Assembly (NCBI RefSeq): GCF_024055725.1
Contig: NZ_JAMXMX010000041.1
Location: 1-37,486, forward strand
Length of the DNA: 37,486 nucleotides
Direction: 5' to 3'
Source: Actinoallomurus spadix
GTDB lineage: Bacteria > Actinomycetota > Actinomycetes > Streptosporangiales > Streptosporangiaceae
Notes under the pieces: model-generated
What the model was told of the DNA's origin: nothing
The model's database searches: none
The model's input: the letters and a program-made list of their open reading frames with translations, nothing else
Translations under genes and position numbers: made by a program
Shown: positions 28,751 to 31,724 of the stretch, in pieces
Numbering within the stretch: position 1 is the first letter of the stretch
Layout: each line of letters opens with the position of its first letter

Positions 28751-30322
28751 TCAGGAGACGCCGTATCCGGCGCGGAGGAGGCAGTAGGTCACCGACTCCG
28801 CGAGGGCCTCCCACGAGGCGGCGATGACGTTGTCCTCGACACCGACCGTGCCCCACTCACCGGAGGCGTCACTGGACTCGATGAGGACCCGGGTACGCGC
28901 GTCGGTGCCGTGCGCGCCCTCCAGGATCCGCACCTTGTAGTCGACGAGCTCCAGAGCCGACAGCTCCGGATAGATCCGCTCCAGGGCCAGCCGCAGGGCG
29001 CGGTCCAGGGCGTTGACCGGCCCGTTGCCCTCACCGGTCGCGATGATGCGCTCACCCTTGGCGTGCAGCTTGACCGTCGCCTCGCTGACCATCACACCGT
29101 CGGGCCTGCGCTCGACGATCGTCCGCCAGGACTCCACCTCGAAGTAACGCGTGCGCTCGCCGTCGAGCTCCTCGCGCAGCAGGAGCTCGAACGACGCGTC
29201 CGCCGCCTCGAAGGTGTAACCGGCCGACTCGAGCTCCTTGACCCGCTCCACGACCTGCCGCGCCTTGTCGCCGGACAGTTCGTATCCCAGCTCACGGCCC
29301 TTGAGCTCGACCGACGCCCGGCCCGCCATGCTGGAGATCAGCATGCGCATGTCGTTGCCGACCAGCTCCGGGTCGATGTGCTGGTAGAGCATCGGGTCGA
29401 CCTTCACCGCCGAAGCGTGCAGGCCCGCCTTGTGGGCGAACGCCGACATGCCGACGTACGGCTGCTGAGAACCGGGCGCGATGTTGGTCACCTCGGAGAC
29501 GGCGTGCGCGATCCGCGTCATCTCCCGCAGCTCGACGCCGAGGTCGTAGCCGCGCTTGAGCTGGAGGTTGCCGACGACCGTGAAGAGGTTCGCGTTGCCG
29601 CTGCGCTCGCCGTACCCGTTGGCGCAGCCCTGCACGTGCGTCACCCCGGCGCGTACGGCCGCGAGGGTGTTGGCCACCGCGCAGCCGGTGTCGTCGTGGC
29701 AGTGGATGCCGAGCCGCGCGCCTTCGGCCGCGACCTCGGCGACGACGTCGGCCAGCTCGTCGGGGAGCATCCCGCCGTTGGTGTCGCACAGGGCGATGAC
29801 GTCCGCGCCCGCCTCCGCGGCGGTGCGCACGACCTCCAGGGCGTAGGCGGGGTTCGACCGGTAGCCGTCGAAGAAGTGCTCGGCGTCGAGGAAGACCCTC
29901 TGGCCCTCCGCACGCAGGTGGGAGACGGTGTCGCGGATCATCGCGAGGTTCTCCTCCAGCGTCGTGCGGAGGGCCAGCTCGACGTGCCGGTCGTGACTCT
30001 TGGCGACAAGAGTCACGACCGGCGCGCCGGACTCGCGCAGCGCGGCCACCAGAGGGTCGTCGGCGGCCTTCGCACCGGCCCGGCGGGTCGCGCCGAACGC
30101 GGCGAGCTGCGCGTGCTTGAGATCGAGCTCGGTCCGGGCTCGCCGGAAGAACTCGGTGTCCTTGGGATTGGCCCCGGGCCAGCCGCCCTCGATGAACCCG
30201 ACTCCCAGCTCGTCGAGGCGGCGAGCGATGATCAGCTTGTCCGCCACGGTGAGGTTGAGGCCCTCCTGCTGGGCCCCGTCGCGCAACGTCGTGTCGTAGA
30301 CGTGGAAGCCGTCGTCCCGCAT
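28751..30322 (-). CDS. cimA: (R)-citramalate synthase
   Basis: 523 residues. YDTTLRDGAQQEGLNLTVADKL (about 9-30), the HMGL-like barrel with FIEGGWPGANPKD, HCHDDTGCAVAN metal-binding histidines, GCANGYGERSGNANL, and the C-terminal LeuA-dimer/regulatory domain (about 395-523) identify the citramalate synthase branch rather than isopropylmalate synthase. The GGWPGANPKD motif is diagnostic. It condenses pyruvate and acetyl-CoA to citramalate, the threonine-independent route to isoleucine. AAGGGGATCGACCC is the ribosome binding site. An attenuator leader lies upstream. leuB and ilvE in the same window act later in the pathway. Confidence 0.93.
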   Translation of the reverse strand: MRDDGFHVYDTTLRDGAQQEGLNLTVADKLIIARRLDELGVGFIEGGWPGANPKDTEFFRRARTELDLKHAQLAAFGATRRAGAKAADDPLVAALRESGAPVVTLVAKSHDRHVELALRTTLEENLAMIRDTVSHLRAEGQRVFLDAEHFFDGYRSNPAYALEVVRTAAEAGADVIALCDTNGGMLPDELADVVAEVAAEGARLGIHCHDDTGCAVANTLAAVRAGVTHVQGCANGYGERSGNANLFTVVGNLQLKRGYDLGVELREMTRIAHAVSEVTNIAPGSQQPYVGMSAFAHKAGLHASAVKVDPMLYQHIDPELVGNDMRMLISSMAGRASVELKGRELGYELSGDKARQVVERVKELESAGYTFEAADASFELLLREELDGERTRYFEVESWRTIVERRPDGVMVSEATVKLHAKGERIIATGEGNGPVNALDRALRLALERIYPELSALELVDYKVRILEGAHGTDARTRVLIESSDASGEWGTVGVEDNVIAASWEALAESVTYCLLRAGYGVS

Positions 30323-30364: not shown

Positions 30365-30397
30365 AAAACAAAATGACCCCTCACGGGACGTGAGAGG
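30365..30397 (-). terminator. Intrinsic terminator of the cimA leader (attenuator)
   Basis: On the minus strand CCTCTCACG (30397-30389), loop TCC, CGTGAGGGG (30385-30377) form a 9-bp stem (one G-U), followed by TCATTTTGTTTTG, a T-rich tract. It lies between the leader peptide stop and cimA, 55 nt before the cimA start, i.e. transcription would stop before cimA. Confidence 0.8.
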
Positions 30398-30421
30398 TCT
30401 GCGCGCCGGCGGAGTGCTCGT

Positions 30422-30466
30422 TCAGGTGCCGGCGCGCCAGCCGATAATGACCAGGCTGTTGCGCAT
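30422..30466 (-). CDS. cimA leader peptide, branched-chain amino acid attenuation
   Basis: A 14-codon frame MRNSLVIIGWRAGT with CTG GTC ATT ATC in a row, i.e. Leu-Val-Ile-Ile, the regulatory codons expected for a branched-chain amino acid attenuator. Its 3' part GCGCGCCGGC (complement of 30428-30437) can pair with 30401-30410, and an intrinsic terminator follows at 30365-30397. Ribosome stalling at codons 5-8 when charged Leu/Val/Ile tRNAs are scarce would disturb the first stem and so the fate of the terminator. A simple antiterminator helix was not found by eye. No strong ribosome binding site is seen, so the leader may be near-leaderless. Confidence 0.78.
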   Translation of the reverse strand: MRNSLVIIGWRAGT

Positions 30467-30678
30467 GATGGCACCGAGTGTGCCACACCCCCGCCGCGAC
30501 GGACACATCGGTCTCGCCATCCGAGACAGAACCCGCCCACCAGCGGTTTCACGATACCCGAGAGCGCGAATCGAACTGACTATCGCCGATTCTCCTGCGC
30601 GCGGTCATCACCATCGACTACCTTCCGTGACTTGCCATGCACTTTACGTTCTGGACGACGGGAGAGGATGATGGGACC

Positions 30679-31263
30679 ATGTCCATCGTGCTGGAGAAGC
30701 CGATCGACCTGGGGACCGACGACCGCACCGACATCGAGCGCCGTTACGACGAGCTCAGCGAGCGCTGGCCGGACCGCAAGGTCGAGGTCATCGACGGCCG
30801 GATCGTGGTGAGAGAGGTGCCCACCACTGATCACGCCGACATCATCTTCCGTCTCCTGCTCCAGCTCATGCCCTTCGTCACCGAGCGTGGCTGGAAGATC
30901 TGGCAGGACGTCGCGCTCTTTCTCGGCCCCCAGGTGGACCGGTACCGGCCGGATCTGCTGGTCGTGCCGCAGGATCCACCCCGGTGGGGCGACGATCACG
31001 TCTTCGGCAACGCCACGCATCTCGTCGTGGAGGTCGTCTCCAAGAGCAGCGTCCGCGACGACCACGAGGTGAAGCCGCGGACCTGCGCGCGCTGGGGCGT
31101 GCCGCTCTACCTGGTGATCGACGGGTTCGGCGGGAAGGCCCGGCTGCTCAGCCATCCTGGCCAGGACGGGTACGCGCAGGAGATCGACGTCAAGCTCGGG
31201 GAGCCGCTCCCCCTGCCGGAGCCCTGGGACCTGACCCTGGACACCGGCCGCCTGGCGGGCTGA
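30679..31263 (+). CDS. Uma2 family (PD-(D/E)XK fold) endonuclease-like protein
   Basis: 194 residues from the ATG at 30679. The family pattern is clear: YDELSERWPDRKVEVIDGRIVVRE with the early Glu, HADIIFRLLLQLMP, DVALFLGPQVDRYRPDLLVVP with the catalytic Asp, and HLVVEVVSKSSVRDDHEVKPRTCARWGVPLYLVID with E-x-x-S and the lysine. These are the residues of a PD-(D/E)XK nuclease-like core. Uma2 proteins are very numerous in actinobacteria and cyanobacteria and their biological role is uncertain. The longer frame from 30637 is rejected because the ATG at 30679 begins the family. It is divergent from cimA. Confidence 0.88.
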   Translation: MSIVLEKPIDLGTDDRTDIERRYDELSERWPDRKVEVIDGRIVVREVPTTDHADIIFRLLLQLMPFVTERGWKIWQDVALFLGPQVDRYRPDLLVVPQDPPRWGDDHVFGNATHLVVEVVSKSSVRDDHEVKPRTCARWGVPLYLVIDGFGGKARLLSHPGQDGYAQEIDVKLGEPLPLPEPWDLTLDTGRLAG

Positions 31264-31451: not shown

Positions 31452-31724
31452 ATGAGCACGGGGCAACGACGGCCTGCACGGGGGCATGTCGTCTCTTGGG
31501 ACGACGAATCGGGTTGGGGGGTGCTCGCCTCGCCGGAGGTGCCCGGCGAGGTGTGGGCGCACTTCTCGTCCATCCGCCTGGCCGACCCGGGCGGCTTCCG
31601 CGCGCTGAGTCCCCGGGATTCCGTCCTGTTCACCTGGGAGGAAGCCGAGCAGGACGGCTACCTCTTCCGGGCGGTCGAGATCCACCCGGACCCAGGTCGC
31701 CGGCGGAGCGCACGGAAGAGATGA
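31452..31724 (+). CDS. Cold-shock-domain-like protein
   Basis: 90 residues. GHVVSWDDESGWGVLASPEVPGEVWAHFSSIRLADPGGFRALSPRDSVLFTWEEAEQDGYLFRAVEI follows the cold shock domain plan: the RNP1-like SGWGVLASPE and the RNP2-like EVWAHFSSI, then the GFRALSPRDSVLFTWEE strand. It differs from canonical CspA (KGFGFI, VFVHFS) in both motifs, so nucleic acid binding is likely but divergent. A basic tail GRRRSARKR may add RNA contacts. GAGGGGAACAG precedes the ATG at 31452. The upstream part of the longer frame is antisense-like and rejected. Convergent with ilvE. Confidence 0.8.
   Translation: MSTGQRRPARGHVVSWDDESGWGVLASPEVPGEVWAHFSSIRLADPGGFRALSPRDSVLFTWEEAEQDGYLFRAVEIHPDPGRRRSARKR

Follow-up and report, generated by a model that had tools for sequence, protein, structure and literature searches.

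A probable leader-peptide attenuator upstream of the citramalate synthase gene of Actinoallomurus spadix and its relatives, with no co-adapted antiterminator found

Citramalate synthase opens a threonine-independent route to isoleucine. In Actinoallomurus spadix its gene, cimA, is preceded by a short reading frame rich in branched-chain codons and by two hairpins, which raises the question of whether this arrangement controls cimA by transcription attenuation and, if it does, how a translating ribosome would operate the switch. The window is the whole stretch of DNA that was analysed (37,486 nucleotides, contig NZ_JAMXMX010000041.1), and its relevant features are collected in Table 1. An earlier note had described here a 14-codon frame containing CTG GTC ATT ATC, a 10-bp stem and a U-tailed terminator before cimA, and all of its coordinates were reproduced.

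Table 1. Features of the cimA leader region in the A. spadix window
Feature	Position	Strand	Basis
Leader peptide frame MRNSLVIIGWRAGT, followed by stop	30422..30466	-	Sequence reading; branched-chain run in frame in parsed relatives
Control codons CTG GTC ATT ATC (Leu-Val-Ile-Ile)	30443..30454	-	Sequence and codon counts
Hairpin P1, 10 bp (arms 30437-30428/30410-30401)	30401..30437	-	Fold, covariation, arm co-adaptation
Terminator hairpin P2, 11 bp (arms 30399-30389/30385-30375)	30375..30399	-	Terminator scan, fold, covariation
U-rich tail ATTTTGTTTT	30365..30374	-	Terminator scan
cimA, citramalate synthase	28751..30322	-	TIGR00977, 646.3 bits (cut-off 450)
CACACT, candidate -10 box for a leader transcript that would be nearly leaderless	30477..30482	-	Inferred, by-eye pattern
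Inverted repeat resembling an operator (TGTCTC..GAGAC..GATGTG), ahead of the leader promoter	30502..30528	-	Pattern search

The 14-codon frame runs on the minus strand from ATG at 30466 to a TGA ending at 30422, so that its stop codon lies inside the P1 loop. P1 starts 8 nt downstream of the A of ATC, the last control codon, a single base separates P1 from P2, and 42 nt lie between the end of the U-tail and the cimA ATG (30322). The ATT of the control run is a rare codon, as the window's cimA, ilvE and leuB together contain ATC 50 times and ATT not once; ilvE and leuB lie on the same strand, upstream of cimA at some distance.

The leader region has a predicted folding energy of -56.3 kcal/mol versus -42.9 +/- 3.6 kcal/mol for shuffled sequences, none of 200 shuffles being equal. 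A terminator scan of the window returned 3 sites versus 0.1 in shuffles, one of them P2 and another a sub-stem of P2, and P2 would terminate transcription. Covariation was evaluated in 41 cimA leaders that had been chosen because they could be parsed. Standard pairs made up 99.0% of the 730 pair cells, and changes on both sides were found in 10 of 18 pairs and in 57 cells, values that in each case no shuffle out of 500 attained; the count of extra pair types, a weaker covariation measure, was as high in 14 of 500. When the partners were shifted by 1-3 columns the paired cells fell to 39-55%. Both-side changes affect 4 of the 9 counted pairs of P1, the other 5 being invariant, and 6 of the 9 counted pairs of P2. 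The covariation check that the earlier note had proposed is therefore positive for both hairpins. At the gathering score Rfam 15 has no family for the element and two tRNAs are the sole matches in the window, while below threshold the leader region gives four chance-level matches; a riboswitch or other known RNA family was rejected for want of an above-threshold match.

Upstream of the leader ATG, the sequence TGTGGCA-ACT was recognized by eye in most of the Streptosporangiaceae loci inspected, and a sigma-70 promoter scan found no promoter-like site. Of 55 cimA loci from Streptosporangiaceae, 44 have, by a loose pattern, a repeat like that at 30502-30528, and the exact pattern, with up to 3 mismatches, has a single match in the A. 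spadix genome; it is possible that the repeat is the site for a cimA-specific repressor or activator. NdgR was considered as its regulator and rejected, because the S. coelicolor motif, as given in the accessible part of the publication (PMC4340878), is unlike the repeat. The divergent neighbour of the leader encodes a Uma2-family protein (30679-31263, plus strand; PF05685, 6.1e-19), and further on the region 31452-31724 of the same strand has a weak likeness to a cold-shock domain, below the cut-off.

The element is well conserved before cimA. CimA is present in 285 of the 297 genomes of the family (E <= 1e-150), and upstream regions were taken from 30 family loci, from the best 80 of 582 named loci and from 20 more family loci. 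The hairpin-terminator pair with an overlapping branched-chain frame was parsed in 30 of the 30 and in 20 of the 20 family loci. Among the best 80 of the 582 named loci, it was found before cimA in Acrocarpospora, Planotetraspora, Nonomuraea, Pedococcus, Cellulosimicrobium, Isoptericola, Cellulomonas, Demequina, Kutzneria, Amycolatopsis (where one leader, L067, was assigned by eye and not by the parser), Lentzea, Pseudonocardia, Motilibacter and Nocardioides. In uncultured freshwater-type actinobacterial contigs (L040-L050) cimA mostly lacks the element and lies closely behind another coding region, and cimA of Streptomyces lavendofoliae (L066) also has none. In three acidimicrobial MAGs (L086, L098 and L100) the cimA leaders end in the Ile runs GIIIC, SIGIT and SIIIIT. 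They have a stem located at the stop codon and, after a gap of 4 nt, the stem of a terminator, but the sequences of these stems are unrelated.

A covariance model built on the 41 cimA leaders (R1) and the CimA protein were both run on the same 138 genomes of the class. R1 gave 143 matches in 95 of these genomes (E <= 0.01) and CimA matched 111 of them, and 79 of the 111 CimA matches have an R1 match 15-221 nt upstream on the same strand, which bears out the earlier expectation that leader and terminator would be kept before cimA orthologs. The element also precedes two further cimA fragments, which sit on other contigs than the CimA match. On the other hand, the element is missing at 30 of the 111 CimA matches, with the 2 split contigs allowed for, and none was seen by eye in the 16 upstream regions inspected, which counts against its being an attenuator of cimA.

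The same model also recognizes leaders of other genes. Downstream of the 64 R1 matches away from CimA (E <= 0.01) are ilvB in 37 cases, leuS in 11, ilvA in 7 and leuA in 2, the rest being the 2 cimA fragments and 5 matches without such a gene. These genes were identified by seed proteins, one seed per kind being checked against profiles: leuS and ilvB scored above the cut-off, the ilvA seed had threonine ammonia-lyase as its best profile, below the cut-off, and the leuA seed, a 300-residue piece, had 2-isopropylmalate synthase, also below it. Four R1 matches at the same threshold (L270, at 6.6e-5, L277, L282 and L283) have no branched-chain gene and were dismissed as false positives, and the match L220, with a leader ending in RIII, precedes a small protein without family match. 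In a sample of the phylum R1 matched 34 of 149 genomes (E <= 0.1); outside the class its matches lie mainly upstream of ilvB, with one leuB (L150) and one leuA (L162), and among the 30 listed loci L141, L149, L154, L157, L159 and L160 are without seed genes. In L149 a frame ending in SALAVRRGFVAIA lies before a gene that, judged by eye, resembles isocitrate lyase, and is either a chance match or an unrelated leader. The genome of A. spadix itself contains a second branched-chain leader, MNRNLILVLGRRAS, with the two-hairpin layout, before ilvB on contig 8; the cimA-derived R1 missed it even at E <= 10.

The control codons match the target gene. In the non-redundant leaders the control runs before cimA (24 leaders) contain 57 Ile, 10 Leu and 8 Val codons and those before ilvA 5 Ile and 1 Val, whereas the leuS runs contain 13 Leu and 1 Ile and the ilvB runs are mixed, with 21 Ile, 40 Leu and 40 Val. 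The earlier proposal that the cimA leader responds to all three branched-chain amino acids is thus in keeping with the Leu-Val-Ile-Ile run of the window, but across cimA leaders the runs are mainly of Ile. Rare codons are concentrated in these runs: ATT accounts for 33 of the 57 Ile control codons before cimA versus 16 of 828 in 60 cimA genes, and occupies the second-last control position in 19 of the 24 non-redundant cimA leaders, and GTA accounts for 23 of the 40 Val control codons before ilvB versus 42 of the 2928 Val codons of the 60 cimA genes. A plain terminator insulating cimA, beside which the leader peptide would be incidental, is in our opinion very improbable. Termination is indeed the function of P2 best supported by the sequence, but such a terminator would not account for codons that vary with the controlled gene, for rare codons clustered in the run or for the distance kept between codons and P1.

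The element also changes place among the genes of the pathway. Family f60 has 11 genomes with CimA, and in none of the 11 does the element precede cimA; 7 have it before ilvA, and at these ilvA loci (L227, L228, L229, L248, L249, L272 and L273) the leaders are of the type LM.IT followed by the stop, with cimA lacking the element. These genes are the two entry points into isoleucine synthesis, and it is between them that the element moves.

By its parts and relations this is probably a cimA member of the actinobacterial ilvB-type attenuators. A short frame with branched-chain codons overlaps the hairpin region, there are two adjacent covarying stems of which the second is a terminator with a U-tract, and R1 leads to 37 ilvB leaders in the 138 genomes (E <= 0.01). 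Attenuators of such layout are already known from the accessible parts of the literature, for ilvB (PMC1262725, PMC8079986, PMC10272879) and for leuS (PMC1262725), and include ilvL of S. coelicolor and S. lividans (MRTRILVLGKRVG) and the LVVI uORF of M. tuberculosis ilvB1 (PMC1262725, PMC8079986, PMC13236596). They share with the cimA element a leader with a branched-chain run, a P1-like stem and a U-tract terminator, and are often leaderless; they differ in that here the target is cimA and the control codons are mainly Ile. LVVI leaders with the same two hairpins were found by folding in L308-L310. In Corynebacterium, the ilvB-II motif likewise has a uORF overlapping P1, a P2 terminator and branched-chain codons, according to the accessible part of PMC10272879.

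We consider it probable that the element, whose parts, conservation, covariation, gene-wise codon specificity and geometry are shown here, is a ribosome-mediated transcription attenuator of cimA. The transcript would start near 30466 and be translated at once. With plentiful charged Ile, Val and Leu tRNA, the ribosome would reach the stop codon and hold the 5' arm of P1 open, P2 would form, and transcription would end before cimA. A shortage of charged tRNA, chiefly of Ile-tRNA, would make the ribosome stall on Leu-Val-Ile-Ile and the polymerase read into cimA, and the rare ATT in the run would make stalling sensitive. That stalling leads to readthrough of cimA is suggested by analogy with the M. 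tuberculosis ilvB1 leader, for which the published text states that changing LVVI to AAAA abolishes induction and leaves a low, unresponsive expression (PMC13236596); in addition, a C. ulcerans ilvB-II reporter is described as responding to rich and minimal medium (PMC10272879). However, in the same literature, as far as accessible, the S. coelicolor ilvB leader is reported to be unaffected by codon changes (PMC1262725) and a one-codon mutant in C. ulcerans to be without effect (PMC10272879), and these results speak against attenuation.

The layout had been assigned earlier to class I attenuation. The conserved leader peptide and the terminator agree with this assignment, and a ribosome stalled on the control codons would reach strand 1, but a co-adapted antiterminator was not found. 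The enterobacterial trpL, hisL, leuL, ilvL and thrL are alike in placing their control codons within strand 1 or immediately ahead of it and in having a U-tract terminator; they rely on a 2:3 antiterminator, whereas no conserved one was found in the cimA element. For ilvB1, the accessible part of the publication gives a model of mutually exclusive terminator and antiterminator drawn from predicted folds (PMC13236596).

Antiterminators were searched for by swapping, in which the pairing energy of a region with its partner from the same leader is compared with that obtained with partners from other leaders. The test used 64 non-redundant leaders, differing by more than 15%, and the statistics leave out 8 of 189 leaders that were unparsed and three that were misparsed (L146, L151 and L274). 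The arms of P1 (z -21.7) and those of P2 (z -14.8) are strongly co-adapted. No co-adaptation was found in the 64 leaders between the P1 3' arm and the P2 left arm (z -0.4), between the P1 loop plus 3' arm and the P2 right arm (z +1.3), or between the P1 5' arm and either P2 arm (z +0.3 to +0.4). The pairing of the P2 right shoulder with the P1 loop, proposed in the accessible part of PMC10272879 for Corynebacterium ilvB-II, is likewise not co-adapted here (P1 loop and P2 right arm, z +0.6). None of the 17 region pairs fell below z -1.5 in the full set of 64, and an antiterminator from any of them was rejected. In subsets, the codon region of cimA with the P2 right arm (z -2.0) and the P1 loop plus 3' arm of ilvB with the U-tail (z -2.1) had probabilities of about 0.02, as expected among 51 tests. 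The earlier doubt about a classic antiterminator helix therefore holds for the 64 leaders, in the sense that co-adapted cross-pairing between P1 and P2 is absent; this absence concerns a conserved antiterminator only, since the window does contain a weak candidate. Antiterminators of invariant sequence would go undetected by swapping, which was applied with no classical attenuators as positive controls.

A class I switch with a weak antiterminator we regard as possible, though doubtful. In such a switch the stalled ribosome would hold the P1 5' arm and the freed P1 3' arm would pair with the end of the P2 left arm and its loop, delaying P2. The window does offer an alternative hairpin of this kind (GGCG..CGUC, -4.5 kcal/mol), four non-redundant leuS leaders offer one of -4.4 to -7.5 kcal/mol, and Streptomyces leuS attenuators, which also consist of leader and terminator, are reported with antiterminators in the accessible part of PMC1262725. 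Moreover, masking the P1 5' arm raises the median probability that the P2 left arm is paired while its right arm is still to be made; in cimA leaders it goes from 0.05 to 0.45, within the range given by the same measure in E. coli (thrL 0.39, leuL 0.46, ilvL 0.50, hisL 0.66 and trpL 0.71). However, under this masking the terminator itself still forms at a median probability of 0.94. In joint folds swapped pairs are stronger than own ones (z +3.1 and +4.1, 64 leaders), and this includes the very pairing of the P1 3' arm with the P2 left arm plus loop (z +3.1 in all, +2.4 in cimA leaders). Pairing of the P2 left arm with upstream RNA alone also averages 0.27 in cimA leaders, versus 0.39-0.75 in the five E. 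coli leaders, with no excess over a shuffled upstream part (0.26), although this shuffle test is weak, since the E. coli leaders are not clearly above their own shuffles (thrL 115/200, leuL 21/200, trpL 25/200) and ilvL was misparsed.

The geometry of ribosome, P1 and P2 is strictly kept. In a redundant set of 111 cimA leaders, 86 have a last control codon that begins 8 nt upstream of P1 (SD 1.2), and the stop codon of the same 111 leaders lies anywhere from -3 to +16 relative to P1 (SD 6.6). The gap between P1 and P2 is 0 in 135 of 178 leaders, -1 in 15 and +1 in 18, that is, between -1 and +1 in 168 of 178, with a first parser that admitted only gaps from -1 to 4; gaps in E. coli leaders, 2 to 13 nt by minimum-energy folds, are too crude for comparison. 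If the ribosome is taken to extend 12 nt past the base that opens its A site, one standing at the stop codon would mask 90% or more of the P1 5' arm in 174 of 178 leaders, in 61 of the 64 non-redundant ones and in 24 of 24 non-redundant cimA leaders, whether the stop is at the foot or in the loop of P1, the frame search having admitted stops only from 14 nt before P1 onward. For a ribosome whose A site holds the last, second-last or third-last control codon, the median overlap with the 10 nt of this arm would be 5, 2 and 0 nt, respectively.

P1 is the sole conserved part whose state depends on the position of the ribosome. The simplest scheme that fits is that P1 is present at the stall and absent at the stop, and that readthrough accompanies P1. 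Stalling may then defeat P2 because P1, standing against the P2 base, prevents it from closing. As P1 and P2 have strongly co-adapted arms with nothing co-adapted between them, the gap is mostly 0 and the ribosome at the stop covers the P1 5' arm nearly always, we tentatively put forward that P1 could be an antiterminator without base-pair exchange, which, flush against the base of P2, would block its closing in the RNA exit channel of the polymerase. A ribosome at the stop would remove P1 and permit termination, and a ribosome stalled at the control codons would let P1 form, with readthrough as the outcome. The steric step draws on general knowledge of the polymerase. However, the predicted fold has P1 and P2 together, a ribosome stalled at the last codon would still cover half of P1, and the three acidimicrobial MAG leaders have their 4-nt gap. 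If P1 does act by lying flush against P2, loss of leader translation would raise cimA expression, unlike in the classical scheme.

P1 might instead be a pause hairpin that holds the polymerase and the leading ribosome to the same pace, so that coupling between them, and no exchange of RNA structures, would be the switch. The conservation of P1, the fact that its sole pairing partner is itself, and its completion when the polymerase is at the end of the P2 left arm would all suit this role, and its spacing to the polymerase would resemble that of known pause hairpins. We judge it improbable, since pausing alone leaves unexplained why P2 should fail when the ribosome stalls.

Whatever the switch, the sequence evidence makes it very likely that the element lets the cell raise cimA expression when branched-chain amino acids are scarce, and this is likely to be an RNA-level end-product control of cimA across actinobacterial orders. 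The earlier remark that leader control of cimA is much less described agrees with full-text searches of open-licence PubMed Central: judged by titles and abstract beginnings, the papers listed include no actinobacterial cimA attenuator and nothing on the topic of ilvA leader attenuation. Thus, although attenuators of the general kind are known, the targets cimA and ilvA, the swap of codons between the two and the missing co-adapted antiterminator appear to be new. It is an old puzzle, in the accessible part of PMC1262725, that actinobacterial leaders miss some components of classical attenuators; with no conserved antiterminator found and the geometry of ribosome, P1 and P2 strictly kept, this puzzle becomes simply testable.

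The size of the P1 loop may vary: in family f3 (L136-L138 and L254-L268) the loops are about 40-50 nt long and hold extra hairpins, with the foot of P1 and the whole of P2 unchanged.
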